Assembly (NCBI GenBank): GCA_963971425.1
Contig: OZ020515.1
Span: 38,793,198 to 38,857,197, forward strand
Source of the DNA: Bryoerythrophyllum caledonicum
Taxonomy: Eukaryota; Streptophyta; Bryopsida; Pottiales; Pottiaceae
Length of the DNA: 64,000 nt
Direction: 5' to 3'
This document shows positions 11,701-64,000 of this stretch, piece after piece; the first letter of the stretch is position 1; every line of letters begins with the position of its first letter. Under the pieces are notes generated by a model. That model made no database searches. It worked only from the letters and a program-made list of their open reading frames with translations, and was not told where the DNA came from. Position numbers and translations under genes: made by a program.

Positions 11701-14700
11701 CACACTTCTATCTTGTGTTTTTGTCACAAGTAGGGAATTTTAATGTATGTCACCCTGTGAGTGCAGCATCCCTGGCTAATATCTTGGAGGAGGATGCTTT
11801 GCAACTGTACACCCTCATATGGGCTCGCACATTGGCGTGCCAGATGGAGCCTGCCGTATCTAGCCAGGTGTGGATGCGTGATAGTATAGCGAATCAAGCA
11901 ATTTTATCAACTAAATGACTATGATGAATCTACTGATAAATATCTTCTTGCTAATTGTGGTTGAGGAGCTCAAGCTTTCACCTGTTAGTAGTACAATATA
12001 CCAACTTTTCCTTCACTTCAGTAGTTGGTTTTCTCTGATCTTCTTCTGAGGGCTTTTGTGTGGATAGAAACAGATGATATATCCTCAAAATTGGGCAGCA
12101 GTTAGTAGATTTTCAATGCGAGGAGCAGGAATTTTTACCGTTGTTTGTACTTGACCATGAAGATCGTTTTGAGAATGATCTATTTTGTATGAGTCAGCAA
12201 TCCTGGGTTGGGGTGACATGCAGGTTTCTGTTGACGTTGAGGATGTGGACCAGAGTGTGCAGCTGCGTGCTACTAGCTCAGCTATTTCCTTTCCTGGATT
12301 TCTTGCAGTCTACAAGGTTTGTGGCTCCTGGCTCCTGTTTGTAATGTTCAACCGAAAATGAGTTACAAAAGCTGTTAGTTTAGGCAACGAAAGTTTAGCT
12401 TTTTCTTAGACTTCATCTTTTCGGAGAGGTAACCGTGCTAGGTGTGGCTTCTTCTTGCGCAGGACGTGGCAGCTCTTGGCAAATATGCAGAAAAGCTTCA
12501 AGACGATGAGAACAGTGGGTCCACTCCAGATTTCAATCGACTCAAGGTGACAAAAGCGAAGTCTTTTCTTTTAAAATTAGTTTTTATTTTTTTGTAAGGT
12601 TTGCAGGTTACATTCTTAAACAATACATGTGAGGGTTTAGCCATTGGTGTAATTAAGTGAATTTTGCATTGGGAGGCCAGGCAGGGGATTCACTACAGCT
12701 CTCAGAGGTTCGGCCAATTCAGCACTTCACAGAACCTCCACCTCGATATTCAGAGGGCACATTGGTAAGCCATATCATTTCGTGACTAACAAACGTAAAT
12801 GATATGTAAATTTCAACCTGTACACCGAGGATTCTGTTTAGTTCGGTCGATGGAATTAAGTGCAGTTATCACAGGCAATCCACTAAAATCTGGAAATGTT
12901 GTAGGTAGTTCTCTCCAAATCTACAAATGTCACAGATGATGTGCCTAGGTTTTGCGCAATCATGAAATAGTTTGCACCACAGTGAATGTTAATTCTGATG
13001 AGGCAAGTTGTGGCCTCTTCTGTGACCAAAGAATTTTATGATATCAAGGAAGGCACTTAATTATGCAGGTGAAGCATCTGGAAGAGCTTGGCATTGGCCG
13101 CCCTTCAACATACGCTCCTACTCTACGTACACTTCAGGTAAAAGTTCCTCTAACGGGCCTCTAATACTTTTGGGTTCTTGTATGTGGACCTGGAATTTAT
13201 TCTGTTGCTTTTCCAAGTTTTTCTTGTTTACCAACTCATGCTTTTGGTTTTTCTCTGCTGTGTTGCAGTTGAGGAATTATGTGAGAATAGATAAGCGTCG
13301 GGTTTTTCCTGAAACACGAGGTCGTATGGTACGTACTGAAATAAAGTCATCCTTTCTCGAAGTTGAAGACTTTGTTTATCAGCGAGTATGATGGCTCTAT
13401 GTCTCAAATGCTTAATCGCTGTGCAGGTCTCTGCATTCCTAATTCATTACTTCCCAGACTTTGCGGACTTTGACTTCACTGCCAATATGGAGAGCCAGGT
13501 ATTTTTGTGCCCAACACTTTTTCTATATAAGAATTCACTGCAGCTGGGATGTATTTCTGTGAGTTATTTATTAGAAGGGTTCAATAATGTCTTTAATGGT
13601 TAGCAATTCTGAGGTGAGACTCGTTAAGGCTGACCTAATCTGACAGCTACTTCACGTATCTAACTATATTTGAGTTTGGATATATGATTTTCCGTGGTAC
13701 AGCTTGATGAAGTATCAGCAGGACAGGCCAATTGGAAGAAGGTGTTGGGCAATTTTTGGCCTGGATTTCATGGAAATGTTTTGGATGCCATGAAGGTCCC
13801 TGTTGAAAAGGTACAGTTAGTGTAATCAATACTTTTACCATTTCTTCACCAGTTTGCACTTTGAGTCTCTTTTATCTGTGAAGGTGGTGGAGATGCTTGA
13901 AGGAGTGCTTGCCAAACAGTTCTTCCCATCTACAAGTTCAGGACTTGGGAACAGAGTTTGCCCAAGGTAAATTTAACTTTTTGACGCTGCTGGTGTGCTC
14001 GAGAACTCTACGTATGAAGTATTTTTCTATGAAGGCTTGTACAAGTGTCTAGGAAATTGTGATCAGTATTATTTCTGCATCAATCATGCTTTTGGCTGAT
14101 GAAGAATGAACTGAAAATGTGTCAGCTGCAAAGAGGGAAAGGTGTCTCTGAAACTGAGTCGATTTGGAGCTGGCTACTTCTTTGGATGCTCTCGGTATCC
14201 TGATTGCTTGTAAGCATCTCAGTCATGATTTGTACTTCTTTTTTGTGTCCAAGTTGCTGAGCTCATAATGTTATAAAGTCATTCGCTCATATGCCCATCT
14301 TCATAAATACAGGTTTAAAGCCAACATGATATCTGGAGAGGAAGAGGAGTCTAGTGACGAAGAAGACTCTGAAGCGCCAGCTGCTCAATGGTCTGCCATA
14401 GCACGCCCTGCAAAGGTTCTTGGTGTGGATCCAGCCACTCAACTGCAGGTAATTTCTAAAACTCAACTCTACAGACATTCCTTCTTGTTTCAACACATGG
14501 GTTTTGGTAGCAAAAAATGACATCGCTCATGTTTTCAGGTGGTTATGAGAGTGGGGCCCTATGGAGCATACGTGCAACTTGGAGAAGCTTCCAAAAAACA
14601 GAAACCACGTCGAACTACTTTACCCAAGGCAAGTAAATGAAGAGTTCCATTTCCCGAGCTTCTCACTTCTTCAGTCTGCATACCATAAGAAGAGTTCAAT

Positions 14701-15670
14701 ATTGAACTTTCTTTCATGCTTTTGCAGGGTGTCAAAGCAGAGGAGGTTGATATAACGAAAGCGTTGGAGCTGTTGAGCTATCCCCGCGAGCTTGTAAGTG
14801 TCCTCAATTGTGTTTTAGCGTGGTGCATGCATTCCTATATTAATTTTCTGACTTCCTTGACAGGGGAAGCATCCTGTTGAAGGGACACCCATTACAATCA
14901 GCATTGGAAAGTTTGGGTTCTTTCTCCGGCACCGGGCCATCATTGCATCTGTTCCCCAGGTAATGAATGTTTACTTTAAACGAATGTGAGTGTTGTATCC
15001 GACTTTGTTTTAAGATTCTGGTTGCTCGTTACAGGGCCTTAGAGTGGAGGACTTGTCCATGGACAAGGCAGTTGAGATACTGAAAGGCAAGCACGTCTCA
15101 AGACGAGGGCGGCGGCCCCGGAAAGCCGCACCTGACGACACGGTCGCAGAGTCGAGCAACTCCTCTGAACCCTCTCTCCGTGACTCAGGTGAGGCGTCAG
15201 CATCATCGCCGGCAACAGAGCTGCAGCAGGGCACGGAGGCGAACTCCCAAGACAAACCGAAGCGGAAGTACGTCAAGAAGCCCAAACAGGATGCTACCAA
15301 GGACGATTCTTCCCATGGACCTGAGCCTGTTGTTCAGAAGAGAGGCAGAGGGCGCCCGAGGAAAAATGCTGTATCGCCGGAGCTTCAAGTTGTCCAGGTC
15401 TTGCCCTTGCTCTCTGTTTCTTGCCCTTTCAGAAGACTACACTAAAAATGAAATGTTGTTATACTAATTTCAACAGCTTCCTTAATTGATTAAAAAACTA
15501 TCATCCATACTAACTATTTTTACCCAGTATCTTTCACTTGGTGAAATTTTTTATCTTGTATGAAAAGATCAATTGCCCCGAGGAAGAAGTTAGTGTGGGT
15601 GCTTCTGGTTACCACTTTCTACAAGAACCAGTTCTTATGCTTTTCTTTTTCTTCTTTTCAGAGCGAGTAG
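8717..15670 (+). CDS. DNA topoisomerase I, type IA (bacterial-type), organelle-targeted
   Basis: Relaxes negatively supercoiled DNA by a single-strand break with a 5'-phosphotyrosine link; the N-terminal extension suggests plastid or mitochondrial import. Exons with consistent phases: 8717-8881, 9713-10062, 10192-10828, 11135-11221, 11308-11354, 11492-11601, 11767-11867, 12224-12316, 12463-12546, 12681-12764, 13069-13137, 13269-13328, 13427-13498, 13703-13810, 13884-13966, 14126-14209, 14313-14448, 14539-14628, 14728-14793, 14864-14959, 15035-15397, 15662-15670 (about 997 aa). Key blocks: Toprim start VESPSKAK (107-114), SDPDREGEAIAWH from 180, catalytic Tyr406 in ITYMRTDG, RPSTYAPT, and a four-Cys zinc motif (C715, C718, C738, C744). 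The tail holds two AT-hook-like motifs, RRGRRPRK and KRGRGRPRK. The intron after exon 18 uses a GC donor. Reading through the last intron instead would stop at 15445. ATG 8750 is an alternative start. Confidence 0.93.
9096..9465 (+). repeat. Degenerate repeats with TTTAGGG core inside topoisomerase intron 1
   Basis: The motif AGGGTTTAGGGTTTATGAG occurs at 9096, 9234, 9354 and 9447 within the 831 bp first intron. Each copy follows similar flanking sequence (a GAATTGAGTTGAGAA-like or GTAGCCA part). The last two copies share GGAACATCTCTTCTGTCAA downstream. Spacings are 138, 120 and 93 bases, so this is a decaying tandem array. Telobox motifs in first introns can enhance expression in plants; that role is only inferred here. 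Confidence 0.8.
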
Positions 15671-22639: not shown

Positions 22640-22966
22640 GAACCTTCCTCCCGCGATCACCATCGCCACTTCTAGGTTACTACAGCGTCATAAGCATCTA
22701 GAATTAGTAGAGAAGATCGGGAGAGGTGAATTGCAGTGAACGGCGAGTTTGGCCGTGGTGTGGAGTGGTTTTAAGGCTTGTCTAGGGTTTGAGGGAGCAT
22801 GAGAGTTGTGTGTTTGGAGTATGAGAGAAGGTGTGGAGGGTGAGAGAGGCGGCCGAGGCCGTGGGAGATGGCGGGGTGATGATATTTCTGGTTTGTGAGG
22901 GTTTGACATGCCACAGCGTTTCTACAGGAGGCTTTGTGTTTGCGGGAGTTTTTGGAGTGCGCCGCG
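22640..22966 (+). promoter_or_regulatory. Probable promoter and 5' UTR of the F-box gene
   Basis: GC-rich lead-in to the ATG at 22967, containing the telobox-like CTAGGGTTTGAGG near 22781. No TATA box is evident. The ATG context GCCGCGATGAG is good for plants (purine at -3, G at +4 is absent). Confidence 0.35.
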
Positions 22967-24747
22967 ATGAGTTACCAGGTGCGGCATGTGCAGCCGTGCA
23001 GCAGCAGCAGCAGCAGCCGGTTCCGTGCGGAGAGACCGACGGAGGTTGTGAAGAAGCGGAGGCTGTGCCCGAAGGTGGCGGGGTTTCTGGACCCGGCGCT
23101 CTGGAAGTATTTGCCGGACGATGTGTTCGAGAAGGTGGCGGCCTATCTGCCATTTCCCGGGCTTTTTAAATGTCGCGCGGTGAACAAGCGGCTCAAGGAC
23201 TTTGTGTTTTCGGAGAAGTTTTACGAGGCGCGCGCTTGTGTGAAGTCGTGGGAGGCTTTGTCCGGGAAATCTAAGTATTTGCTCCTGTTTGCTACTATCA
23301 AGGGGGGGAATATGTGCACTGCGTATGACGCCGTCGGGAATTGCTGGCTTCGTATGCCTCCAATGCGAGGACTTGACCCGAGAGCGAAAGATTGCGTAGC
23401 TGGTGAGGGAGTTGGCTGTGTGCTTTTGTGGAGTTTGGTTCCTGGTTGAGGATGTTTCCTCTTAGTTGTGTGTGTCCTCAGCCTTCTTGTTGCTGGTTGT
23501 TTGATGATGTCCTTGATTTGAGCGAAATTTGTGACAATTTCATAAAGAACAGTTGTTTTGGTGATAGCTTCACGGGAACGAATTTCTGGTTGCTTTTTAT
23601 AGATAGTATTTGTGCTGCAGACAGAGAAGCTTGACGGTGTCAAGTTCTGCGATTGTCGGACTGGGAAGTAGTACCAGTTGATTTTGTTTAGTCCGCGGGT
23701 GACGTGAGTATGATTTTTGTAATTGAATTGCAACCGATCAATTGGCTTCGTCAATGAACTGAGGTAGTTTTTGAAGTTTGAAAGTAGTACAGCTTGTGCT
23801 AGGTTGGAAGGCTGAACACGCTATCTTGTTTATTCCGTGCAGGAGACGGAGGCCTCTTGTGTTTCCGGAACGTGAACGAGCAAGGAGTGATGAGCCTGTT
23901 TGTGTACAACCCCGTCACAGCGAGCTGCAGAGAGCTGCCGCCAATGCACGTCGGCAACTCCATGATGCAGCATACGTGGCTGTTGACGCACATGATATTT
24001 AACAGGTTCACCAGCTCCTACAAGCTCCTGGTTCTGACCAAGAGCATGCAATGCCCGCAAGCGTGCGCGCACATGGAGATCTACGACTCGCTCACGCAGA
24101 CGTGGTCCATCGACAAGAAGCTCTCAGTGATCGAGCGCAAGTACAAGCTGAGCTTCCTTCCCCAAGTCGGAGCGTGCTGCGACAACTTCTTCTACTTCGT
24201 GGCCAAGGAAGGCATTCTCAGGAGCAGCGTGATGGGACTGGTTGTGTACGACATTTACGAAGGCGTGTTCAGAGAGAAGCTGCTGTACAGATGTGAGCCG
24301 CGGTGCCCGGGGAGCGAGATCGAGGTGCAGGTGGTGGAATGCAAGGGCACTGTGTACATGGTGGTGCGAGAGGACGACTGCAAGGGCACAAAGGGAGTCT
24401 CGTTTTGCAGGTTGAACCCCTCGAAAGAGCAGAAGATCGAGGACGCCGTGTTGTTCGAGAGCTATTTCGAAAAATGGGGCTCTGTCTTCCCCAGCTACAG
24501 GTGCGTCTCGGTGCGTGATGAATTGGGCTTACTCTTATACGACAAGTCATTCCAAGTTCTGGCAGACGATTTGTCAGATGAGCTCAAGCTCCCGCCGTGC
24601 CCGTTCCAAGGCCTCAACAGCTTTGTCCCGTGCACTAAGCTGTTCTCCAAATTCAAGTGCAACAAACCACCGTTGTCTATGTATTATGCGACCCAGAACG
24701 TGGTGTCGGAGGCTCACTTTCAGCCCAATGCGGCTGCTGTAGTGTAG
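22967..24747 (+). CDS. F-box/kelch-type protein
   Basis: Likely the substrate-recognition subunit of an SCF (Skp1-Cullin-F-box) ubiquitin ligase. Two exons, 22967-23402 and 23843-24747, join as GCT G|GA GAC across a standard GTGAGG...GTGCAG intron and give about 446 residues. After a Ser run (residues 12-17) and a basic patch VVKKRR, the F-box spans about residues 43-88 (PALWKYLPDDVFEKVAAYL ... FKCRAVNKRLKDFV). The C-terminal 300 residues show kelch-like blocks (YDAVGNCWLRMPPM, VYNPVTASCRELPPMH, IYDSLTQTWS, VYDIYEGVF) typical of plant F-box/kelch proteins of the LCR/HWS/UFO type, though I cannot assign it to one of these. The first exon continues open to 23449 if the intron is retained. No close neighbour shares its strand and spacing, so it stands alone. 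Confidence 0.9.
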
Positions 24748-26887: not shown

Positions 26888-27798
26888 CTACTCCGCCTTA
26901 CCAAGCGCCATCATAAACTCCCCTTCACACACCAACTCTCCTCCCACGAACGCTTGCCCCTCCATCTTCGCAATTCCGAATCTCTTGTTCAGCTTCGTCA
27001 GCTTCATCTTCATTAGCAGCGTGTCGCCTGCAATCACCGGCTTGCGGAAGCGCACCTTGTCCACTCCCGCGAAGAAGAACGACTCCTTGGAGCCTCCAAC
27101 GTCCGGTTGCAGCATCACAATCCCTCCAACTTGTGCCATAGCCTGCAAACAATAAGGAATATCCTATCAAAACTCTCAACAGCAGAGTGCAGCTAACTAA
27201 TACATCATAGCAACCGGACAGTGGCCAATGCGCTCACATTGGAATAGAAAATTCGTTCGCATACACAAAACAGAGAATTAGACCTAAAACCTTCCGCTAC
27301 AGGATTTCGTCAGGATCTAAGCTATCTTACCTCAACCATGAGCACGCCAGGCATGATAGGGCGCTGCGGGAAGTGTCCAGGGAAGAAATTGTCATTGATA
27401 GTGACATTCTTGATAGCCACAGCGGACTCCCCGGGGTTGTACTCAATCACTCTGTCCACCAGCAGAAACGGAAACCGGTGCGGCAGAATGTCCATAATCT
27501 GATTGATGTCCAACGCGGTCGGGAATGCGGGATACCGCTTCTCGATCGGAACCTCGACCTCGGTCGCCTCCTCCGCCGGCGCCGGCGCCGTCGTCGTGGT
27601 GGTGGAGTTCCCGTCCGACGCCCTCACGGCGAGCGAGACGCGTCTCACAGCCGCCGCATTCCCGGTCCGCAGCGCCACCAGCTTGCGCCCGGCGAAGAAC
27701 GACGAGGTCGCAATTGGCGTCCTGGCGGAAGTGGTGCGGGCTTCCAGGGTCGCTCCGAAGGCTGTGAGCGCTCCCGCTGCCGCCACAGCTGCCGCCAT
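26888..27798 (-). CDS. FabZ: Plastid 3-hydroxyacyl-ACP dehydratase FabZ
   Basis: Removes water from beta-hydroxyacyl-ACP in the plastid type II fatty-acid synthase cycle. Two exons (27798-27331 and 27142-26888) join at GAG|GCT across a GTAAGA...TTTGCAG intron, giving 240 residues. Residues 1 to about 85 are Ala/Ser/Thr/Arg-rich, as in a plastid transit peptide. The hot-dog-fold domain follows, with [13 protein letters not shown] (catalytic His107) and [19 protein letters not shown] (151-153 GVL) leading to the catalytic Glu156. Glu156 is the last codon of exon 1, and [11 protein letters not shown] follows it in exon 2. The C-terminal part ([17 protein letters not shown] ... [11 protein letters not shown]) is standard for the family. 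An in-frame GTG lies six codons upstream, but the ATG at 27798 is the natural start. Composition is GC-rich only in exon 1. Confidence 0.95.
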
Positions 27799-28100
27799 TG
27801 CTGCCAAACAAAGCACGGATGTGCGAGCTCAAGGAATCGTTGAAGGCTCGAGCGAGAAACGCGAGTGCAAAATGCCTACGAGTCGACGTCGAGTGTGTGT
27901 TTCACAAGAGTCGCGGACGGACGCTCCTCGAGCGGAGACCCCAATGTGAACGGATGCGTTCATCCCATCGGAGATGAAGATGGATGAATTTCGTTGCGAG
28001 TGGGACGAATGACTCGCGGTCCACGGTCACCGGACCTCTTTATTTCATGTAGACGGATGTCACGGGCTCCCCTCCAACATAAAAATAGGGGCCATGTTTT
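27799..28100 (-). promoter_or_regulatory. Promoter and 5' UTR region of FabZ
   Basis: GC-rich DNA directly 5' of the FabZ start on the minus strand. Open frames on the plus strand here are mirror images of the coding exon and its leader. A TATA-like element is not obvious. Confidence 0.35.
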
Positions 28101-35141: not shown

Positions 35142-35510
35142 TTGCCTACTTACCTAAACAATGAAAAGTTGGCATATAGATCTCTACCTATGGATCCCCC
35201 AAATCCAATGGATGCAATGATGGCACCCCAAAGCTTATCATTTGTGATGCCCCGAGACTTAGCACCACGGTCAATGCTTGTTCATTTGCCTAAATTTTTG
35301 GAAATGTCTCATAAAGATCCTACTAATTACATAGAACAGTACATTGAGGCTCTTGTGACAAATGTGATCTTTGATGAGTCATACTGGTTGGTGTGGTTTT
35401 CAACAACATTGGAGGGAGAAACAAATGATTGATATTGTGCACATGCCCCTGAAACCTTTGCTAATTGGCCTGCCTTCCATACCGTCTTGCTTAGACAATT
35501 TTGACTCTAA
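35142..35510 (+). mobile_element. Gypsy fossil: gag part
   Basis: Contains a Gypsy-type gag block: LPKFLEMSHKDPTNYIEQYI, then W-x2-WFSTTLEGE and, further on, FANWPAFHTVLLRQF. These match the usual gag helix spacing. No zinc knuckle is seen. The part is a broken fossil. Confidence 0.65.
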
Positions 35511-36079
35511 ACCAGACAACAAAGTGTCTCGGTAGCTTTTACGGAATGGGCTCATTTAATTGAGGGAAAATGACAAAGGTTCAAAATCTATGATGCATTT
35601 TTAGTCATTTTTGTTTAGATTTAATCACCTCTAGATCTTTTGTCATTGTACCGGTATCTCTTTTCTATAATGTCAAGTAAATGGGAGATATCCACCCCTT
35701 GTGCAAGGAATCAAAAGCCAATTTGGCGATTTGTTGCAAACTCATTCGCGTACAAGATGTTGCAATTGCCGATATTTGCCGGTGAAGACTTTCTAACACC
35801 AAATTTTCAACCATCCGGTGTATTCCATTTGGCGGGTAGAATGTTGGAGGGCAAGCTGCCGATGCCGTAGTTGGAGGTGTTGCAGGCACTGACAACTCTA
35901 TCCACTAAGGAGAATTTGGTGACAATGCTAGACAAGTTGGCGGCAGAGGTTGTATCCGCGATTCAGGCCAATGCCACTTCCACAGCTACGGAGCAGCCCT
36001 CCGGGGATGAGTCATTGCTCTCTAGAGTGGCTGATTTGTCTGACGTTGCGGCCTGATTGGCATGAGAGCAACGCAATGT

Positions 36080-36480
36080 GCGTCCAGGGATGGTACGCTT
36101 GGTGAATGACAACGGAATCATGTTGGTTGGCTGTACAAACGACAATCCTACTCAAGCTACCCCCTTGCGTGTTATGTTGGACTTTGGAGTCCGGAGCTCA
36201 GCTAATGATGATTGGCAACCAACTAGCCAAAGATTTGGATTTAGATGCTTTAGACCTCAAGTTTTACCCATTTACAATTGTTACATTGGTTGGGAGCACG
36301 GAGAAGGCCATGGGATACACCCAACATCCGTTGCAATTGATGTTTGGAGTAGGATCTAGTCCATTATTCTCACATGTATCTCATCAGTGCGTTGTGACTA
36401 GTGCCACTGACTACGACATTCTGATGAATCAACATGCGTTTTATCCACTTTGTTTTGGAGTAGATCACTCAATGGAGGAG
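36080..36480 (+). mobile_element. Gypsy fossil: aspartic protease part
   Basis: Shows the retropepsin-like start (a worn form of LDSGA followed by QLMMIGNQLAKDL) and downstream TSATDYDILMNQHAFYPLCF, a pattern known from plant and algal Gypsy proteases. It lies just before the methyltransferase block. Fossil. Confidence 0.6.
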
Positions 36481-36862
36481 GCCTGAATTAGGCCTGAGTG
36501 GTTTGCTGATAATAGCAAAAAGAAGCTTATGCCCCTTGTCTTTGTAGCTAGCGTGGTGACTTCGATGGTCGACACTGTGTTTAGATGCGGTGCGTTGGTA
36601 CTTGGCATCAAGTTTGCCATGAGGTTTGATGCTTCTAGAGGAGACATGTGCATTTATGTTGGGGGTAGCGGAATTACAGAAGCACGTACGACTACAGATC
36701 CTTGAACGTCATTACAAGGATCCACTTCCGCCACAGGGGACTCAATTGGAACTTCGAGCTCGCTCGTCGCAATCATGAGATTGTGGACGCTCTTGATGCT
36801 CCACAACTCTCAGTGGATTCTTCCACTCCGTTGTTGGCTCACACTATTTAGTGGCAACTACC

Positions 36863-37310
36863 AGATGAGGATATTACCCTCATCGAGCTATTTGCCGGTA
36901 TCGGTGCAGGGCTTGCGGTTGTGTTAGAGGCCAGGCTTAAAGTACGGCGGTACATCCACGTGGATAGTGGATTTGCAGCCAACCGTGTCGTTGACCATTA
37001 CATTTAGCGCCTTATGGTGTTGTATCCGGAGCAATTACTGTCTTCTGCTATGCGGGTATGTTTCAGCAAGTTGCGAGTGATGTGACGTTGATCAATGAGG
37101 ATGATCTGCGCTAGTGAGGTCATGTGGACTTGGTGATTGCCGAATGGCCTTGCCAAGGCCATTTACGGACGGGCAGTGGAGGCGGCTTGGATGATCCACA
37201 TTTTGGTCTATTTGCTTATTTGCTCAGGCACATGCAGTGGTGGATTATCCACCAATCAACGCCACTGGGGTACATTTTTGAGAATGTATCTCAAGGGTTG
37301 TTCCGACGTC
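36863..37310 (+). mobile_element. Gypsy fossil: C5 methyltransferase, N-terminal motifs I, IV and VI
   Basis: ITLIELFAGIGAGLAVVLEA near 36873-36932 is C5-methyltransferase motif I (SAM-binding F-x-G-x-G). DLVIAEWPCQGHL near 37125-37163 is motif IV with the catalytic Pro-Cys. YIFENV near 37271-37288 is motif VI. The layout, with GLDDP between IV and VI, resembles DNMT3/DRM-type enzymes. Fossil part of the retrotransposon; not expected to be active. Confidence 0.75.
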
Positions 37311-37429
37311 CGTCCGTCCATCCAACTATCCATCTATCCATCTAATAGAGGTTGATCCCGGTCGATAAGGGTCAATGCTAGTTTGACCAGAACAATAGGT
37401 AAATCAATTTATCTAATGCCACGAGGATG

Positions 37430-38110
37430 ACTACGTAGGTGACATGTACACAAGAGGGTCGCACGCGTGTAGAAAGGAGGCGGGCCTATGAAAGAGGTGG
37501 GCACATACTGTCCGGGCTGGGCGCGTATCAAGAAAGAGGGATTGGGCGCGCGTGTGGCTTAGAAGTTAGGATCATTGTGGACATAAGCTTCACTCCATTT
37601 AACACCAGTAAATGGGTCGAGCGCATATCGATATGAAAAGGGCGCGTACCAATAAGGGTCGAGCGCGGGGAGGGGAGGTGGGGGCGGACACGCAGGTGGG
37701 CTGGCGCACAAAAAAGTCAGGGCGCGTACCAATAGAAGTTAGGCACGTGCGCATAGAAGCTTGGCGTGCACGATTGCAAGGTCGGGTGTGTACGCGGATT
37801 GGAAGTTGGGTTCTTTTTGGACATGAACTTCACACTACAAACACTACTAAATGGGTCAAGCGCGCGCAGGAGGTTGAGCGCGCAAGCGCCTTAGAAGTTG
37901 GGTTCATTGTGGACACAAGCGTCACTCCATTTAACATCATTAAATGGATCAAGCGTGTACCGATATAGATTGGGTGCGTACGAATATGAGTCGAAAGCGT
38001 ATCAATAGGAGTTGAGCGCACTCACATTGGAGGCTAAGCGCGCACGCTTGTAGGGTCGCCCCTGTGTACCAGTTGGAAGTTGGGTTCATTGTGGACATGA
38101 ACTTCACATG
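37430..38110 (+). repeat. GCGCGTACC-type repeats, forward block
   Basis: Units such as GGGCGCGTACCAATA, TCGAGCGCG and GCGCGTAC alternate with a longer unit that starts GAAGTTGGGTTCATTGTGGA. That unit recurs near 37560, 37802, 37892 and 38077 and is followed by CTCCATTTAACA-like DNA and AAATGGGTCGAGCGCG. The array is irregular and degenerate. Confidence 0.7.
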
Positions 38111-38387
38111 AGTAAAAGCATGTCCACCCCTTGTACGCCAACTCGGCGCAACAAAAAGTTTCTTGAAGAATTCAAATCCACAAATTCTATAATTTTAACT
38201 AATTTCGTATATTATATATTTTCTAAGACAATACACATGATATATAGAGTACTTATCAATCCGACGCGAGATCATCACAAAACAAAAATATAAGATTAAT
38301 GAAACATTTAAACACATTTTTTCTTTAGGGATTTCAAGAAAATTGGTCTATTTTTTGTTTTTTTGGGTAATTTTATGATCTACTTGG

Positions 38388-38555
38388 GGTCTTCAAGTGG
38401 CTCAATGGGGGCCCCAAGTGGCTCAACTGGGGCCCCAAGTCATCTACTTGGAATCTTCAAATGGCTCAACTAGGGCCTCAATTGATCAAAGATTTAGGGT
38501 TTAGGGTTTAGGATTACAACTTACAAAGGCGTCTTAGGGTTTAGGATTTAGGGTC
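38388..38555 (+). repeat. GGCCCCAAGTGGCTCAACT repeat next to telomere-like repeats
   Basis: Three or four copies of CAAGTGGCTCAACTGGGGCC, partly diverged, occupy 38388-38480. TTTAGGGTTTAGGGTTTAGG and related units follow at 38491-38555. It lies between the two opposed GCGCGTACC blocks. Confidence 0.65.
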
Positions 38556-38809
38556 CCAGGGGGATCTTCTGTTCTAATTTTTTAGCATTTTGAAATCATA
38601 GCCGTAGAGAATCTTGTAACAGACACTTTGTTTAGAATCTTATTTCTGATTTTTCTACTTATGTAGGAAAACTAATTAGCAAAGGAAATAAAATGATCCC
38701 AAAAAAATAATAGAGTGCGATACCCTTCTCTTTATTTTGTACGCTAAGCCTAAGAATTTAATTATCCTAATCAATTTAAGAGCTTCAATTATTGGTTTTA
38801 ATCCAAATG

Positions 38810-39390
38810 TATTTCATGTCGAAAAAGAACCCAACTTCCAATCCGCGCACACGCACGACCTTGCAAGTGTGCGCGCCCAACCGCTATGCGCGCGCATTCG
38901 ACCCCTATTGGTACGCGACAAGCACAAGAATGCGCACGCCCCAACCCTTATGCGCGTGCGCCCGATTCCCATACGCGCACGCCCGATCCATTTAGGTACG
39001 CGCCTAAACTATTTAGGTACGTGCTTGATGCATTTAGTGGTGTTAGTGGTGTGAAGTTCATATCCAAAAAGAACCCAACTTCCAATCCGAGCACACGCGC
39101 AACTCTACAAGTGTGCGCGCTCAGCCCTCTATGCGCCGCGCCCGACCCTTATTGGTATGCACCTAGCCTCTAACCTTACGCGCACGATAAGCAGGTACAC
39201 GCACGACTCACAATGGTACGCACCAAGCCGCAAATGTTGCACGCCCAGATCCTAACGGTACGCACCCGACACTCAAGGGTACGCGCCTGGGCTTGAATGG
39301 TATGCGCATGGCTCTAAATGTTGTGCATGTAGCTCAAAGGTGCACACCCAACTTGCTTACGGACGCGCCCGACCCTATGACGTGACGTGG
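38810..39390 (-). repeat. GCGCGTACC-type repeats, reverse block
   Basis: The inverse of the block at 37430-38110. AAAGAACCCAACTTCCAATC occurs near 38825 and 39068, with GTGTGAAGTTCATATCC before the second copy, and many GGTACGCGCC/GGTACGCACC units follow. The two blocks face each other across about 700 bases. Confidence 0.7.
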
Positions 39391-39769
39391 AATGTGGTAT
39401 GATGTGTAAGCACAGGTGTTTTACTACGGGGTAGGTTGTTAATTCGATTTAGGGTTTGTAATTTTTTTTACACACAACTATCTGCTAAAAAGTGTTGTCT
39501 ATCATGTACGTTCGTCTGTCCGTCCGTTCACTCTGTTTGGGCTCATGTCCGTTGTCCTGATGGAAATTCTTCCATCATGTACATACAAGTATTAGTCTTT
39601 ATATGTGTGGATTTTAATAAGTAAGGAGTTGGGATAAAAGGGGTTGGTCGTGGTAAGAACCACGGTTTGAGGATTTGGGCAAGTGTTAGCATTTAGGTGC
39701 TGCACCGCTCTTGTCACTGCTCAGGGGGGTAGGTAGCGGGTTGACTGGTATTTTTCCTGCTTCACTAGC

Positions 39770-39840
39770 GAGCCAAGCCGTGGGCCGCCGAACCACTCGA
39801 CGGGCTCGATCGGGTTCGAACCCGGATCGGCGGCAGCCAC
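39770..39840. other. tRNA T-arm-like sequence, possible SINE or relic
   Basis: CGGGTTCGAACCCGG near 39813-39827 is a perfect palindrome that equals a tRNA B box (GGTTCGAANCC) with its stem. I found no A box at the usual 30-40 base distance and no cloverleaf, so this is not a tRNA gene. It could be a SINE remnant or chance. Confidence 0.3.
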
Positions 39841-41279
39841 TGACCACGACATTTCCAGCCAACCAAGTCCACGACTTGGCGATCAGGTTGTGCGAATCAA
39901 CACCTTTATACGTCCGCACCATCAGCTATCTTATGATAAGTTTTATTTTTATTTTTATTTAGTTATTTTTTTATTTTACTTATCTTGTTGGTTGGAAGGT
40001 CTAAGTTTTTAGTCTTCCAATAAATAAAAGACTAGGGGATTTTATGTGGTTGAAAGTGGAAAGGATAAGAAAGTAATCAAGTACCTTGTGGGGTACTTTG
40101 GGTAGGGTGACATGGGCTGGAGTGCCCACGTCCACTAGAGGTGGAAAAGTTGAAAAAGGAGATTCCTTAGTGAGTTAGTGTGTGTGTGTGTGCGGGTGAA
40201 AGAGCAAGGGTTTGGAGCAGAACTTGGACTGTATGTAGCTCAGCGAGTTTTGTTCGCATGGAATTGAAAATTTGATGGTTTGTTTTTTGTCTTCAGAGAT
40301 TTCTATACTCGTTTCAAAAATTGAATTCGGAGTTATGTAGCAAAAGTTATGAAGGTTTGTTTTTCTGTGAAAATCCGAGGCCATCCATTGAGAGGCAGAG
40401 GTTTGACAAGCGATAACTTTTGCTGTAGTTCTTAGTTTTCTTTGAGATTTGAAGGGTGTATGCGTCTCTATCTTAGCTTTCTAGAAAGATATCACAATTG
40501 AAATTTGGAGTTTTGAGCAAGAAGTTATGGAGATCTGAATGAATATGTAAGGCAGAACTTTGAACGTCCACAACTTTTGGACAACAGTTTTGAATGTTTC
40601 GAGATTTTCAGGAGTGTTAGCATATTGTGTTAGCTTTTCAAAGAGTTATCACACGTAGCATTTGGAGCTTCCAACCATATGTGGCGTCTATTTGAAGCTC
40701 ACAACCTAGTTTGAAGCATATTGTTGAGAGTTTTTTTTTACATCTTGAAGACTTTGGAGTTGAAGGATGGAAGAATTGAAGACATGAGGTTTGAAGAGAA
40801 GAGAAGATGGAGACAAGTGTGTTGTGGCTTGTGGTCCGATTTCTTTTTTTGTGATTCCAAGCCAGCTTTGGAGGCTAGTTGTATTTCAATTCTGTTTTTG
40901 TAAACTCTGTTGCGGCGAAGTGGGGTTAATTGCCCACACGGTCGTGTTTATGTCGTTCCCACCGGTGAGGCACGTTTGCTGGTCACCGTGGATTTGAAAT
41001 TTAGGAGGCAACGTCCGGACGGTTCAGCTCGTGGTCTGGCCGTCCCGTTTTACCCGTCCGAAACCGTGGGTTCTTATTACCTTACCTTTACCCTTAAACC
41101 TGTTAGAGCCATCACAGGATAGGCCAACGGGGAGCAGATTGAAGACTCGAAGATTTAGAAGACCAGATGATTGAAGACCTGAAGATTTGAAGATACGATT
41201 GGATTCCCGAGCAAACAATCTCCAGTCGCAGCCAGATTCCCTGCGAATTCTCAAGGCGCTCCCCTCTCTACACGACATC

Positions 41280-41900
41280 GTCTATGTAGACAATCTTGTG
41301 TACCCCTATTTAAGGACATTTGGACAGGCGCATGAGGATGGTGCATACATCTATCACTTTCTTGGTCCTCTCACTTTTGTCGATGCCGTAGCGTTGGGCT
41401 TATTTGCCCATCGTTTACGTTGGCTGTGATCCAACCTCGCTTTTTCAACAACTCGCACTTCTATACTAGCTCACATGCAATGACCCACACGCACTTGAAT
41501 TGGTGATAACTTTGGTGGTGATCGTGTTTCCACAAAGGTCTCCAAGGATGATGAGCCACCATTGGCGGTGGTGAACCGCGTAGGCTTCACTTGGGAGGCA
41601 TTTCTCGCATTGATGTGCTACCCGAGCCTAGGGGTCCTTTGCATCTATGACATGCGGTCCGGGCATGTTTGAAATTTTATTTCCCAAATTTATGAGAAGC
41701 CTTGTACCGATGAGAGAAAGCGGAGGATGGGCTTTTTAACAGGCACCACCGTTGCACTAGATCTCTCTAAGGGCCAACGTAATTGGTTGTTGGGTCAAGC
41801 CATGAACCTCAACACTCTTGTGTTGGTTTGTGGCCTTTGTTTTGCCGTTCATCAATGTTTGCGTGATCATCCACGTGTGTTAGGGGCAGACACTAATGAT
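41280..41900 (+). mobile_element. Gypsy fossil: C5 methyltransferase, C-terminal motifs
   Basis: FVDAVALGLFAHRLRWL near 41373-41426 matches motif VIII of DNMT3-like enzymes (DA...AHR.R). GFLTGTT and RNWLLGQAMNLNTLV near 41727-41822 match motifs IX-X (RQRLLG.S..V in DNMT3). They lie about 4 kb from motif VI because of the foreign insert. Fossil. Confidence 0.7.
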
Positions 41901-42529: not shown

Positions 42530-42910
42530 ATGTGTGGAAATTATAGGCCGGTCAATTGCAAGACCAAGTTGGACCAATATCCCATACCCACGCCGGAGGA
42601 TTATTTGATGCGGTGGGCCACGCTAGAGTATTTAATACTCTAGATTTGCCGTCTGGTTATTATCAGTTACCATTGATGGTGGATGACCGAGTGAAGATTG
42701 CATTCTACAGAGTTGATCAGGATGAGAAAGATGAATTTTATCTTTGGACATTTCTTCGATTTGGCCTCAAGAATGCACCCCTGAGTTTCAGAGGGTGATG
42801 GACGAGGTGTTGACGGATTTTCCATTTGCCCGATGCTACATTGATGATGTTATCGTTTTTAGTAGCAACCTACAGGAGCATGTGAGGCATCTTTAGGGGA
42901 AATATGAGAA
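42530..42910 (+). mobile_element. Gypsy fossil: reverse transcriptase part
   Basis: Recognisable RT blocks are FNTLDLPSGYYQLPLM, FLRFGLKNAP and YIDDVIVFS (near 42838-42864), the last being the catalytic box. The type is Ty3/Gypsy. Fossil. Confidence 0.85.
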
Positions 42911-43229
42911 GTTACGGTAGTGGAAACTGAGCTTGCACCATAGCAAGTGCAAGTTCTTTTATCAACGGTTGCCATAGTTGGAACTTATGATTGTTCTGGT
43001 GGATCTTGACATGCAACAAGTCAAGATGGATGCGTTGCAGAAGATTCGTGCCCCAAACAACGTTTCACGGCTTTGAGCTTTACTTGGCTTGGCAAAGTAC
43101 TATAACCAGTTTGTCAAGAACTTTAGCTTGATTGCCAAGGCGTTGATTGTTATCACGGAGAAGGATCAGCCATAGACTTAGGGAGCGGAGCAACAATAGA
43201 CGTTCGCTACTTCGAAGCTAAAGCTCGGT

Positions 43230-43440
43230 TCAGCTCCTATGCTGCGTCGTATGGATGCTACACAACCCTTTCAGTTGCACACAGATTGGAGTGTTGTGGG
43301 ATTGGGGGTAGTGTTGACTCAGAAGGATGATGAGGGACGGGGTAAAGTTGTGGTGTTTGCTTTTAGGAGCAACAACAACGCGGAGTCCAACTATTTATCC
43401 TATGAGGGGGAGGCTTTGGCTGCATTTGGGCCATAGCCCG
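43230..43440 (+). mobile_element. Gypsy fossil: RNase H part
   Basis: FQLHTDWSVVGLGVVLTQKD followed by VFAFRSNNNAESNYLSYEGE is the usual Gypsy RNase H start (TD.S..G.G.VL.Q) and its YEGEALA block. Fossil. Confidence 0.75.
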
Positions 43441-44129
43441 TTTTAGGCCCTATTTGTATGGCAACATTTTACGTCGATGACCAACCATCAGCCTTTAAAG
43501 TGGCTCATAGAGTCTGACAAGCTCGCCAAGTGGGCTTTGTTGCTTCAGAAGTATGACTTTGAGGTTGTACGTTTGGCCAGCATGACAAACTTGGATGGTT
43601 AATCTCACGATCCAAGATGGCCATATTTGTTAAATTCAGACATTTCACGAAGTTTGAGACTTCAACCCCTACTACTCTCAAGTTCAAAGTCACTCATTTG
43701 AGACTAAAAAATGTCTCAATTTTATGAATATGGCATTCAAGTACTTTTAAGGAAGATATGACTCGTATCAAGTGGCATGGAGATTGTGATAGGAGTCAAT
43801 CATGGGGTGGCATGCAATGGCTTACCTCATGTTGATGTCTTCCTCCGCGTCAACATTGTTTGATTTGGCAACGAATGAGGAACCAGATAGGGCCCAAGAC
43901 GTTGGCGATGTGTAGGAAGACGTTCCAATCTTGCACAAGCTATAACATGGAACACTTCCCCAAGCTCTTTGTGCTATAAAGCGTGATCAAATTGAAGACC
44001 AAATAGCAAGGTTCCATTGGAGGAATGGCCTTCTATTTGAAGTGTGGCCGGATGAGACAAGGCGCATAGTTTTGAGGCTAGGTCAGAGGGCTTCTTTGGT
44101 ACAGGAAGTACACAAAGAACTAAGACATT

Positions 44130-44650
44130 TATGTGTGCGACGGACTCATTCAATGTTGCGCAACCAATACTGGTGGATTGATATGTCTTAGCAGGTCGCC
44201 ACGTATGTTTCTCAGTGTGAAGTGTGTGCTCGGGTCCAATTGAGCTTCAACACCTTTTCACCACAGTTGCAACCTTTGCCCATTATAGAATTGGACTACC
44301 ATTGGTCCTTGAATTTTTCCGGGTCACTTGTTGTCAGCCAAGAGCCCAAGTGGGGCCAAATACGTATTGGTGATGGTGGAGCATTTTAGCAAGTGGATTA
44401 AGGTTATAGCACTACCGCAGAATTCTTTTGAGTTGGTAGCCATGGCGTTAATCAACTAGCTGATGACTCATTTCAAGTCTTAGTTGAGGTTTTGACAGAC
44501 TATGGGCGTGAGTTCTTTGGTGCTTTTGAAGCTTTGTGTACCAAGGCTTTGATTGACCACTGTATCCTTTTGGGGATCACCCGGAAGCGGACGGTTTGGC
44601 GGAGCGTGTGGTTGAGGTCGTTAAGCATGGCCTAGAGAAGTATAGATTAC
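44130..44650 (+). mobile_element. Gypsy fossil: integrase part
   Basis: A zinc-binding start (NQYWWIDMS followed by C-E-V-C) leads into a DDE-type core with EHFSKWIKVIALPQ and VLTDYGREFFGAF, then LAERVVEVVKHGLEKY-like sequence. The order matches Gypsy. Fossil. Confidence 0.75.
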
Positions 44651-56453: not shown

Positions 56454-57378
56454 CCCCTAAAGGACCAAAGTCTCCTTCGGGGGGATTTCTGATTTTGGGC
56501 AGGTTCCTAAAATTCGAAAAAAAATCCTTTTTCTCTGAAATTTCTATTCTAGATTGCCTCTGATAAGAGCTTCGTGGACATATTTTTATTTTACTTTTTG
56601 GATTTGTGGTTTGAAAGTTAGTACCACTTAAAGCCAAAAGTGGGGAGACCGGGCACCTCCAAAAATTTTGACAAAAGTTTCTATTGACATTGAGATTTTT
56701 CACACACATAAAGAATATTTCCTTTTTCGGAAATTTTCAAAAAAAAATCTTGTCTTTAGTGTAAAAAGGCATTATATTCCAAGTCAAACATTTTCACACA
56801 TTGTCGGGCAACGGGGGAAAAAAACTTCATCTTTTCTACATAAAACCTAGAGATCTTCATATTTTTCACTTTTTATTTTTTCAAAAACAATACATGGTGC
56901 AAACCTTCTTATTGACCGTTTGGATTATCATTTGAATACATACGTAGTTCACAAAAAAAAAACCGTGAAATGACAATTTTTGAACCTCCACTCCTTGCAC
57001 ACTTGTTTTGAATATGCTACACCCCTTTTTTACCTCTAAAAATTGGTGTGCTCGGAAATAACATCATGCTTAAGACAATGGTATAGGATTTAGACCTTGT
57101 ACAATGCAAAAATTTGATACAAAGTGAAGTCAAAGTCTGCTGATCTACTCAACGCAGGGAAGAACTTGAACCATTGTTTTGACTTCAAACACTAAAATCT
57201 ATCAATCTGTGTGGTGGATTGCAACCAAAATTTTATGGCATGTTTATATAGATGTCTATTTTAAGATCTTACGGTTGAAAATCCAAAATTCACTTTAAGA
57301 TGTGATTTTCATGTCTCTTTTTGGCAGTGGCAGTTTTGGACTGATTTTAGAGCAAAAGTGGTCGTGGTCCTTTAAGGG
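56454..57378 (-). mobile_element. TTAA-flanked non-autonomous DNA transposon, copy 5 (925 bp, reversed)
   Basis: Starts CCCCTAAAGGACC and ends GGTCCTTTAAGGG, with TTAA at 56450-56453 and 57379-57382. When inverted it matches the copy at 1944-2867 almost throughout, for example GTTGCCCGACAATGTGTGAA and CTAGGTTTTATGTAGAAAAG. No coding capacity. High similarity to copy 1 argues for fairly recent movement of the family. Confidence 0.85.
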
Positions 57379-57847
57379 TTAAATCATTGGATGTGGACCA
57401 CTTCTTTATTTTTAGAATGCCACGATAGAATTATGGAATAGCCCAATAGTGCCGCATTTTAATAAAAGGTACGGGTACAGTCGTATTGGCAAAAGGTTAT
57501 GGCTAGATCTTCCATAGTTAGGTATGGCAGTGGCATGTATTCCAAAATTTACATATTAAGCGAGATATATTTGGAGAACCAACGACCATCAAAATTTGTA
57601 TATATCCATACATGAATTTCATATTGTTAAACATGTTATATGGAATATCACTCTTGCACCTATCATGCTACTACTATTGATTGAAATTGATTATGCGTTC
57701 AAGGAAAAAACAATGATTATTTAGAATAATTGTTTTTATTGTTTTTGTCAGAAAGACCACACTACTAGTTATCGTTGGAAACACTATTGGCAAAAAATTT
57801 GTAACAAGAATATGAACTCATCTTACTCTTGAGCCATATAAGTTTAA

Positions 57848-61427: not shown

Positions 61428-63459
61428 CTAAGAATTTCCTAACTCTAATCCTAGATCTAAGTAGGGAGGTGATCCAACATCCTTGAACCTTGGGCTCATA
61501 CGCCTAGGAGACCCATCCGGCTTTGCCGGTCTTCGTCTTCCGGGGTGTCGTGGCTGCAGGTTGACTCGAGGATCCGAGTTTGGAAGGTGGTGATGGTGTT
61601 TCCGCCATTGGGATTGTTTCGGTGGCGGAGTCCGACACAGTACCTTCTGGTCCTTCAACGAAGCCCTGGAAGCTCATGCTTGGGCTCGGAGGGTCTGTTT
61701 CTAAACGCCGGGCTAGATGAGGCATCGACTTCCGGTGGCCTACTAGATGGAGTAGGTACCGGCCGGATAGAAGAAGGCGATTCTTCAGGACTTAGCTCCG
61801 GTATTAGCTCCGTCCAATGCCTGATTGTGCCCGTACTTAGGAGACTAAGGGGACTCCAGTTCATAGGTGTGATGGAATCCGGAGTGGTCAATACCTTCTT
61901 CTTCTTTCTGGAGCAATTCGGAGGCACCTCAAAGGATCCCGCCACATCCGGAGTGGTCGTGACTCATACCGGGAAGGACCGGTCTTCGGGTGCTTGGGTA
62001 CTCCGGGTCTCTGGCCCTTCCGAAGACATGTTTCCCACCAGCTCCTACATCCGGCTCGAGGTCTTCTCCATCTTCCTGTCGTGGTCGTGGAGGAACCTGA
62101 TGATTTGCACCCGGTTTAGCTTGTCCTCCCGCTCTAGTTGCTCTGTGAAGAGAAGACTCCGGTTGACAGTGTCAACTGGAAAGTCCAGAGCTGCCTGGAC
62201 CTCTGCCAAGGCCCGGACCGAGGCATTCGACCGATCTTCGGCTTCCTTCCTCATAGCCTAGGCTTCCGCCATTGCCGTCTTTGTCTTGTCCAGCTGCTCC
62301 CGAAACTTGTCGCGACTATGGAGGATGGCAGCCTGTTGCTCGTCTAGTGCCCGGAGTCGGAGGGTGTTCTTCTTGAGCTCCTCAATCCGAGCGGATATGT
62401 CAGCCAGCTTATCAAGTCCCAGCTCTTGCCGGATTTCGTCAATGATGTTCATGTGATCTACGTCCGACTGATAGACAAGGGCAGCCCGCCACGCCACGTG
62501 CTGGATGAGCTCCAAAAGATCCGCCCATGTTTGCTCGATGAGTGTTGAAGGTTCCGCTGCAGGCACCTAACCGTCTCTAGGAGGTGGCTTGGTGGGTTCT
62601 TGTGCCTCTCGCGTCACTACGTGTTGGCTTGGCCCTGCTGGCTTGGCACTACCGGCTCCGATGTCGGCTCCCTTTGCGTCGACCGGCTCCTCTTCCGGGT
62701 AGGGGTGATTGGTGGTGGCGCTGGAATGTTTGTCACCTCTGAGTCCTCTACGTCGGACGCTGGCTCCGGTCCGCCGTAGTTTTGGATGCTAAGGAGCTTC
62801 TCATACACGTCTTGCTCATCCGGCATAAGTACCTCATGGCGTACGTAGAGGTGAGTGAGGTAGGAGGATAGGGGAGTTCCGAACTTCTTTACCTTCTAGA
62901 GGTTTTTCACCATCCGGTTGACCATGGCGCTCATGAGTGACGCCTACTCCACCGAAATCTTCCCCCTCATCAACCTCAGGACCATTGTCGCCCATTTGGA
63001 AACCACCCTCTTTGGCTTTTCCGGATGGAAGATTGGGTTGAGGAATCTAACCACGATCTGGGCGTCTTGGTACCGTAAGTCGTCGGTGCTGAATCCTTCT
63101 TTAGGATCTGTTGTCTTTGTGAACTCATTCTCTAAGAACTCGTCCGTCCGCGTAGCCGTCTTTACATATTCGCTTGTGAACGCGTAGGTGCGTTGCCATT
63201 CCGATACACCCCAGGTTTCCGTATGGGCCCGAATTGTGCCATCGTACTAGTTGTTCGGAGTTCCTAGAAGTTCCGCCACCAACTGTCCTTCCTTTACACC
63301 CCACGCAACATCCAGTAATTCTCGGCACCCCATTACATCGAGGAAGTGTTTGAGTACTCCGAGCTCCTCCGGATTCGAAGGTATGACTGGCAAAACTCTT
63401 TGAATGGCCGAAGTTACAGTGGTACTCCGGGTTGTCCGAGAAGGCCCTTCATCCGCCAT
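61428..63459 (-). mobile_element. Fossil minus-strand protein with coiled coil, probably from a mobile element
   Basis: From an ATG at 63459 one frame can be followed leftward for about 650 codons with only a handful of breaks. It starts MADEGPSRTTRSTTVTSAIQ. A globular part follows (LKHFLDVMGCRELLDVAW ... EWQRTYAFTSEYVKTA ... VVSKWATMVLRLMRGKIS). Next come a Pro/Ser linker with a basic patch TRKRSRST, a long coiled coil rich in Glu, Lys, Arg and Leu (RIEELKKNTLRLRALDEQ), and a Ser/Pro-rich tail. The build resembles gag-like or plant-mobile-domain proteins of retrotransposons, but I cannot name the family. It is treated as a fossil. CCGGA-rich DNA lies on both sides. Confidence 0.5.
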
Positions 63460-64000
63460 GCCTTCTCAAAATTGAACTCTTAATCCTCACAACCTCTCCG
63501 GTCACACCTGCACGCATTGACCTCACAAAAACAACTCCCTATCGGAAGCACTTCCGAACTAGCACAACAGGAAGACGGAAGGTAGGAAGGAGAGGAGAGG
63601 GAGAGAGAGAGAGAAAGCGAAGAGCGAAGAAGTGGAAGACGACAAAAATGGATGTTGATTCTTATACCTGTGACGGTGTACGGATGACAGTTGGGTGTCG
63701 TCGCACTCATGATGGGGTTTCCGGATTCCGGATTCTTCCGTTGAGTTCCGGACGTGACGGACCAACCAAATCCGATTGTATCCGAACATTCGGATTTAGC
63801 ACTCCATTAGGGCTTTTAAGAAAGTTGTCTATCTCCTATGTTTCTTATTCACTAATTCTATTTTTCTATTGCTTTATTCCTCCTTAACGTTCTAGTGCTA
63901 TTTTTTTTTGCTTTTGCCGGATTTTAAGGTTAACTTCCGGAACCTTTTCGGAACGGATTCCCACAACTCATTCTATTTAGGAAAAATGAAAAATATTCAA
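63460..64000 (-). other. 5' flank of the minus-strand coding remnant
   Basis: Holds a GAGA microsatellite (about 63598-63615) and CCGGA-rich words near 63720-63780 and 63918-63960. Short overlapping frames on both strands are not credible as genes. Any promoter for the minus-strand frame would lie here. Confidence 0.4.

Follow-up and report, generated by a model that had tools for sequence, protein, structure and literature searches.

A decayed Ty3/Gypsy retrotransposon with a probable C5 DNA methyltransferase domain in Pol in Bryoerythrophyllum caledonicum

Retrotransposons are silenced by the cytosine methylation of their host, which makes a methyltransferase encoded by the element itself puzzling. 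The locus described here raises such a question: did the Pol polyprotein of a Ty3/Gypsy element once hold a C5 DNA methyltransferase (MTase), or did MTase-like motifs come to lie between its protease and reverse transcriptase (RT) in some other way? The locus is part of a 64-kb stretch of DNA, which was analysed as a whole and is called the window below. It is very probably what remains of a Ty3/Gypsy LTR retrotransposon, now dead, in which Pol once held an unpermuted C5 MTase, DNMT3-like in motifs I and IX–X, between the protease and the RT.

Methyltransferase motifs in the window

A frame check placed all of the peptides quoted in the initial annotation where they had been reported, on the plus strand: FAGIGAG (frame 0, about 36.89 kb), WPCQGH and FENV (frame 2, 37.15–37.29 kb), VDA...FAHRLRW (about 41.38–41.43 kb), and RNWLLGQAM (about 41.78 kb). 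The features of the locus are listed in Table 1.

Table 1. Features of the element and of the MTase region (window coordinates)
Feature	Position	Strand	Evidence
gag-like open stretches	35142..35870	+	5' of the protease block; position only
gag-like second stretch	35625-35870	+	position only
retroviral-type aspartic protease remnant	36106..36486	+	PF13975 E = 0.1, PF13650 E = 0.24, both below cut-off
C5 MTase motif I block	36852..37004	+	2nd of 2,801 for the C5 profile, E = 0.84
C5 MTase motifs IV (PCQ) to VI (ENV)	37118..37288	+	1st of 2,801 for the C5 profile, E = 2e-6
stretch dividing motif VI from VIII, ~4 kb	37290..41318		approximate boundaries
motif VIII-like block	41318..41426	+	seen by eye; no significant score against DNMT3A
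motif IX-X-like block	41700..41855	+	4th of 2,801 against DNMT3A IX-X; shuffle p = 0.011, in register
RT block	42547..42795	+	RVT_1 E = 1.2e-5, 25.5 bits (cut-off 29.6)
RT block with YIDD, other frame	42771..42893	+	RVT_1 E = 2.3e-4, under the cut-off (query with a wrong first letter)
RNase H	43200..43433	+	RT_RNaseH_2 E = 8.6e-17, RT_RNaseH E = 2.7e-12, both above cut-off
integrase zinc-binding domain	43946..44188	+	Integrase_H2C2 E = 2.2e-6, above cut-off
integrase core fragment	44313..44456	+	rve E = 0.0079, below cut-off

The 78 sequences behind the C5-MTase profile were human DNMT3A, two phage enzymes, and 75 of the 80 IMG/VR loci that represent one type of phage enzyme. The profile was searched unfiltered against 2,801 fragments from the six frames of the window, each of at least 15 aa. 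The top fragment (37118–37342, +) carries both the PC of motif IV and the ENV of motif VI. The second fragment, which is not significant alone, is the motif I block and lies upstream of motif IV; the E value of the third was 7.9. The span from motif I to motif VI is about 139 codons, as compared with 125 residues in DNMT3A, and leaves little room for an intron.

Segments of DNMT3A were also ranked against the same fragments. The motif I block was first of the 2,801 with a score of 56 (runner-up, 37), whereas the IV–VI block was only 10th. With the VI–VIII segment, the 60 best fragments included no plus-strand fragment starting in 36.8–42.0 kb. Among the five pieces searched, PF00145, the family named in the initial annotation, matched only the IV–VI block (E = 0.0083; 16 bits, cut-off 22). 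This block was also matched by PHROG 363 (E = 0.001) and by TIGR00675 (E = 0.0051; 16.5 bits, cut-off 100.65), and the PHROG and TIGR family search of three further blocks, IX–X among them, gave no match. The original observation is confirmed: motifs I and IV–VI lead the window and IX–X ranks high, while the DNMT3-like motif VIII is not significant. The assignment of motifs I and IV–VI taken together to a C5 MTase is solid and that of motifs IX–X fair; the putative motif VIII was assigned by eye only.

The element and its decay

A Pfam search of the blocks gave the order protease-like sequence, MTase motifs, RT, RNase H, and integrase on the plus strand. Apart from the MTase motifs, this is the domain order of Ty3/Gypsy elements, with a weak protease match; an active-site-like motif was seen by eye in the protease remnant. 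Since the integrase lies 3' of the RNase H, the order is that of Gypsy and not of Copia elements. Some 0.4 kb separate the MTase region from the protease-like block and some 0.7 kb separate it from the RT match, and the region shares the strand of Pol. That a C5 MTase lies between the protease-like and RT sequences of a Ty3/Gypsy element, all on one strand as first annotated, is supported by the Pfam matches, the profile, and the DNMT3A rankings.

The ends of the element are less clear. Pfam gave no match at E ≤ 1 for the first gag-like stretch (35142–35429) and none for the last Pol-like stretch; a C-terminal zinc finger was sought by pattern. An LTR pair was not found by blastn (word 7) between 28.0–35.2 and 45.15–54.0 kb, where the best E value was 0.65. 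The LTRs of so decayed a copy may be lost or too diverged. Within the 64-kb window, no second copy of the element was found. The window also holds bacterial-type topoisomerase I, FabA/FabZ-type, and F-box genes. Over its whole length there were no Rfam matches and no tRNA genes, and a tandem-repeat scan gave nothing bearing on the MTase.

The MTase gene contains frameshifts and stops, which means that this copy is dead, as had been proposed. The stretch that divides motif VI from motif VIII is rich in TCCG, TCCA, and TCTA at its start, contains inverted and direct repeats at 37.54–39.29 kb, and is probably inserted DNA. Its CpG observed/expected ratio is 0.97, as compared with 0.58–0.79 in the element; the stretch may be younger than the element. 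CpG depletion of the element was considered as a sign of self-methylation and was rejected: with ratios of 0.72 in the whole window and 0.55 in each of two other stretches off the annotated genes, the values are those of ordinary decay. With a broken gene and about 4 kb between motifs VI and VIII, no enzyme is expected from this copy. In an intact relative, the Pol product would include the MTase domain, which the protease would presumably free. The freed domain could then methylate the cDNA of the element or its new insertion, as the architecture and the precedent described below suggest.

Alternative explanations and the type of the methyltransferase

Mimicry of the MTase motifs by degenerate frames might be suspected, because the blocks are weak singly. 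However, the two best of the 2,801 fragments lie 113 bases apart, on the same strand and in the right order. Furthermore, the score of the IV–VI block was reached in none of 1,000 shuffles against M.HhaI, M.HaeIII, DNMT2, and the two phage enzymes, and the corresponding p values against DNMT3A, DRM, and DNMT1 were 0.02–0.06. Chance can thus practically be dismissed. A host DNMT3-like pseudogene or retrocopy, nested in the Gypsy element by insertion and never part of the polyprotein, would fit a single copy in a region so clearly disrupted between motifs VI and VIII. This explanation is nevertheless improbable: the domain shares the strand of Pol at short distances from the protease-like block and the RT match, no direct repeats of at least 40 nt flank it, and a Gypsy element with a Dnmt3 in Pol has already been published from Klebsormidium nitens (PMC5890265). 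Against capture into Pol itself were counted the PF00145 match to one block below its cut-off, the low rank of IV–VI against DNMT3A, the non-significant motif VIII, the weak protease and integrase core, the unconfirmed gag, the missing LTR pair and second copy in the window, and the lack of a relative in IMG/VR or the GTDB contigs.

The type of the captured domain is a separate matter, as a bacterial or phage-type enzyme in place of a DNMT3 would be compatible with capture into Pol and would change only the donor. For the IV–VI block, which carries PCQ and a DDP run, the scores are 87–88 with the two phage enzymes and 74 with M.HaeIII, as compared with 33 for DNMT3A and 33–34 for DRM. When this block was used in tblastn against 50,697 phage records, four matched with E values of 6e-4 to 3e-3, two of them being the same phage. 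In a tree of 82 columns and 17 rows, built without plant or algal DNMT3, a split with a support of 80 separates DNMT3A and DRM from the rest, including the sequence from the window; the long branch (1.83) makes this tree unreliable. In contrast, the motif I scores are higher for DNMT3A (56) and DRM (42–49) than for the phage enzymes (22–29) and M.HaeIII (31). The IX–X block aligns with DNMT3A in register, and the identity over aligned columns is narrowly highest to DNMT3A (29/82, as compared with 27/79 for M.HaeIII). A phage or bacterial donor therefore seems unlikely, though not to the degree of a nested pseudogene. Motifs I and IX–X resemble DNMT3A, whereas IV–VI is closer to phage and bacterial enzymes; membership of DNMT3 is plausible. 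DRM identity was rejected. The motif order of DRM is permuted, with VI–X before I–V, whereas motifs I, IV, and VI are here in direct order; in the DRM rows of the PDB search, motifs I–V matched near the C-terminal end.

Relatives and known systems

Further searches for relatives gave little. The motif I and IX–X blocks had no match at E ≤ 1 in the 50,697 phage records. In IMG/VR, 29 pattern-matching stretches were obtained with the IV–VI block, 21 with the IX–X block, and 6 with human DNMT3A as the query, none of them confirmed; a degenerate pattern of the catalytic motif matched nothing. The pattern MGF.TGTT was present in 28 IMG/VR contigs without a relative among them (best tblastn E value with five blocks, 0.019). 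In the GTDB contigs, none of 427 stretches obtained with the IV–VI block was confirmed. In the PDB, this block had a single weak match, M.HaeIII (E = 0.75), and the IX–X block matched nothing relevant. Annotations of seed-free plant genomes may include related intact polyproteins, which would be a lead rather than evidence.

A C5 MTase inside a Ty3/Gypsy polyprotein is a rare combination. In an opinion paper, transposon-encoded DNA methylases are stated to be absent from land plants, with a reason given for the expected loss of such elements (PMC6338049). No land-plant retrotransposon with a C5 MTase was named in the titles or abstract openings of the literature matches listed, which included few subscription titles. 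The present copy makes it moderately likely that land plants have, or once had, a Gypsy lineage with a C5 MTase in Pol, maybe continuous with the charophyte elements. If so, the statement of absence would be contradicted and the explanation offered for it removed (PMC6338049), and plants would become the place for tests of self-methylation on intact copies. If the lineage is continuous, self-methylating retrotransposons would have survived the move to land.

Several known systems can be compared with the locus. By tblastn the IV–VI block matches C5 methylases of phages, for example of Pelagibacter phage HTVC309P, but these are stand-alone phage genes. Plant DNMT3 and DRM share the type of motif I, and DNMT3 also the direct motif order; DRM is rearranged, and host DNMT3 genes lie outside Pol. 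The initial annotation had named retrotransposons with MTases from dinoflagellates, a sponge, and a charophyte alga, which is partly off. In PMC5890265 only the charophyte element is Gypsy, and the main text contains no "sponge". SymbioDIRS-Dnmt3 and SymbioLINE-Dnmt of dinoflagellates resemble the present element in that a retrotransposon encodes a C5 MTase, but they are DIRS and LINE elements, respectively; the SymbioDIRS enzymes methylated CG de novo in yeast, and the charophyte acquisition was judged by the authors to be independent (PMC5890265). The closest precedent is KnitGypsy-Dnmt3 of the charophyte K. nitens, a Gypsy LTR element with Dnmt3 in Pol (de Mendoza 2018, PMC5890265). It is present there in several distinct copies with conserved key residues, a Ka/Ks below 0.2, and a DIRS-like repeat structure (PMC5890265), whereas here there is one broken copy whose LTR pair was not found. 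The place of the domain within Pol is not given in that text, so the two are compared by description and without position: both are Gypsy elements with an unpermuted C5 MTase in Pol, of the Dnmt3 type in K. nitens (PMC5890265) and plausibly so in the present copy, where its place in Pol is probable.

Methyltransferase motifs in a Ty3/Gypsy element

Between about 35.1 and 44.5 kb, the + strand carries the broken pieces of a retrotransposon, and additional Pol-like sequence reaches, by eye, about 45.2 kb. From 5' to 3', the order is gag-like, protease-like, C5 methyltransferase (MTase) blocks, reverse transcriptase, RNase H, integrase zinc domain, and integrase core fragment. The integrase is downstream of RNase H, which means that the order is that of Ty3/Gypsy. 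No Pfam match was obtained for the one gag-like stretch searched. About 62 bp of the gag region (35667-35727) matches the left flank (6741-6801) at 82% identity in the opposite orientation.

Features of the element and other genes in the window
Feature	Position	Strand	Evidence
protease-like block		+	PF13975, E = 0.1, below cut-off
METHYLTRANSFERASE blocks	36852-37004 (I), 37118-37288 (IV-VI), 41318-41426 (VIII-like), 41700-41855 (IX-X-like)	+	between protease-like block and reverse transcriptase
reverse transcriptase		+	RVT_1, E = 1.2e-5 and 2.3e-4, two frames, both below cut-off
RNase H		+	E = 8.6e-17
integrase zinc domain		+	E = 2.2e-6
integrase core fragment		+	E = 0.0079, below cut-off
bacterial-type DNA topoisomerase I gene	9506-15442	+	several open stretches; Toprim and Topoisom_bac at 9.5-11.9 kb
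F-box gene	22907-24744	+	E = 2.5e-6; kelch-like motif just under cut-off; apparently two exons
FabA/FabZ-type hydroxyacyl-ACP dehydratase gene	26891-27828	-	long N-terminal extension

Of 80 IMG/VR loci, 75 were combined with two phage enzymes and human DNMT3A into a C5-MTase profile of 78 sequences, which was searched, with filters off, against 2,801 six-frame fragments of the window, each of at least 15 aa. The first rank was taken by 37118-37342 (+), containing motifs IV-VI (E = 2e-6), and the second by 36852-37004 (+), containing motif I (E = 0.84); the third fragment had an E value of 7.9. The two blocks are in order, with a gap of 113 bases. When the same fragments were ranked against four DNMT3A segments, the motif I block was first (score 56; runner-up 37), the IX-X block fourth, and the IV-VI block tenth. 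The top 60 of the 2,801 for the VI-VIII segment contained nothing from the + strand of this region. The motif VIII proposed in the initial annotation is therefore a by-eye match. The PF00145 comparison that the annotation proposed gave one block at E = 0.0083, below the curated cut-off, and nothing at E ≤ 1 for the four remaining pieces searched. This combination of MTase motifs and Gypsy sequence is real and rare in kind.

Class of the methyltransferase and its place in Pol

The direct motif order means that the enzyme is not a DRM, and this identity was rejected. The motif I block scored best against DNMT3A (56), followed by DRM (42-49), M.HhaI and DNMT2 (both 40), M.HaeIII (31), phage enzymes (22-29), and DNMT1 (23). 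The IV-VI block scored best against phage (88, 87) and bacterial enzymes (M.HaeIII 74, M.HhaI 57), then DNMT2 (52), with low scores for DNMT3A (33) and DRM (33-34). The IX-X block is in register with DNMT3A (shuffle p = 0.011). Identities over aligned columns are nearly tied: DNMT3A 29/82, M.HaeIII 27/79, the HTVC309P enzyme 27/80, and its relative, the L031 enzyme, 27/81. In a tree containing no plant or algal DNMT3, a split with support of 80 set DNMT3A and DRM against all others, including the window, but the window branch was so long (1.83) that the tree is not reliable.

The MTase might be a domain of Pol or a host gene nested in the element. It is on the Pol strand, with a distance of about 0.4 kb to the protease-like block upstream and of about 0.7 kb to the reverse transcriptase match downstream. 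Motifs I to VI span about 139 codons, compared with 125 residues in DNMT3A, leaving little space for introns, and no flanking direct repeats of at least 40 nt were found. Judged from this one copy, these observations together speak more for a domain of Pol than for a host gene nested in the element. Relatives sought in IMG/VR and GTDB contigs were not found.

Decay and surroundings of the copy

Motif I and motifs IV-VI are in different frames with stops in between, and stops are also present in the right half. The stretch that separates motif VI from motif VIII measures about 4 kb; its start is rich in TCCG/TCCA/TCTA, and it contains repeats in both inverted and direct orientation. The CpG o/e is 0.97 in this stretch versus 0.58-0.79 in the element; the stretch is therefore probably an insertion, perhaps more recent than the element. 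Within it, 37542-39287 is foldback-like or satellite-like DNA, high in CpG. Its repeats are both direct and inverted; among the inverted pairs, the four longest have arms of 80-110 nt that are 74-81% complementary. No LTR pair was found around the element, and the reverse transcriptase, RNase H, and MTase blocks have no second copy within the window. Judging from its sequence, this copy should make no enzyme.

The window is sparse and repeat-rich, as fits a large plant genome. The topoisomerase I gene, being in several open stretches, probably has introns; an AT hook at 15.0-15.4 kb, below cut-off, may by position be its C-terminal exon. The extension of the dehydratase is perhaps a transit peptide. 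We take these three genes to be the set of a plastid-bearing eukaryote, which may be a land plant or a streptophyte alga. A repeat occurs inverted at 1940-2694 and 56629-57382 (91-94% alike, about 54 kb apart), with a third copy at 17.1-17.5 kb (about 81-83% alike). At 61431-63806 (-), a row of open stretches resembles a degraded protein-coding mobile element; the two tested gave no convincing Pfam match.

Possible function and known relatives

The broken MTase coding sequence lies between Gypsy domains. In intact relatives, the MTase domain would be translated as part of Pol and could methylate the cDNA or the new insertion. By analogy, this mechanism has a precedent: in PMC5890265, the dinoflagellate SymbioDIRS-Dnmt3 enzymes are described as performing de novo CG methylation in yeast. 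The Klebsormidium nitens enzyme had no detectable activity in yeast, a result its authors regard as inconclusive (PMC5890265). In the titles and abstract openings of the matches listed, no land-plant retrotransposon with a C5 MTase was named. According to PMC6338049, DNA methylases encoded by transposons are missing from land plants. The K. nitens element, KnitGypsy-Dnmt3 from this charophyte alga (PMC5890265), is of the same kind: a Gypsy element carrying a non-rearranged Dnmt3 located in Pol.
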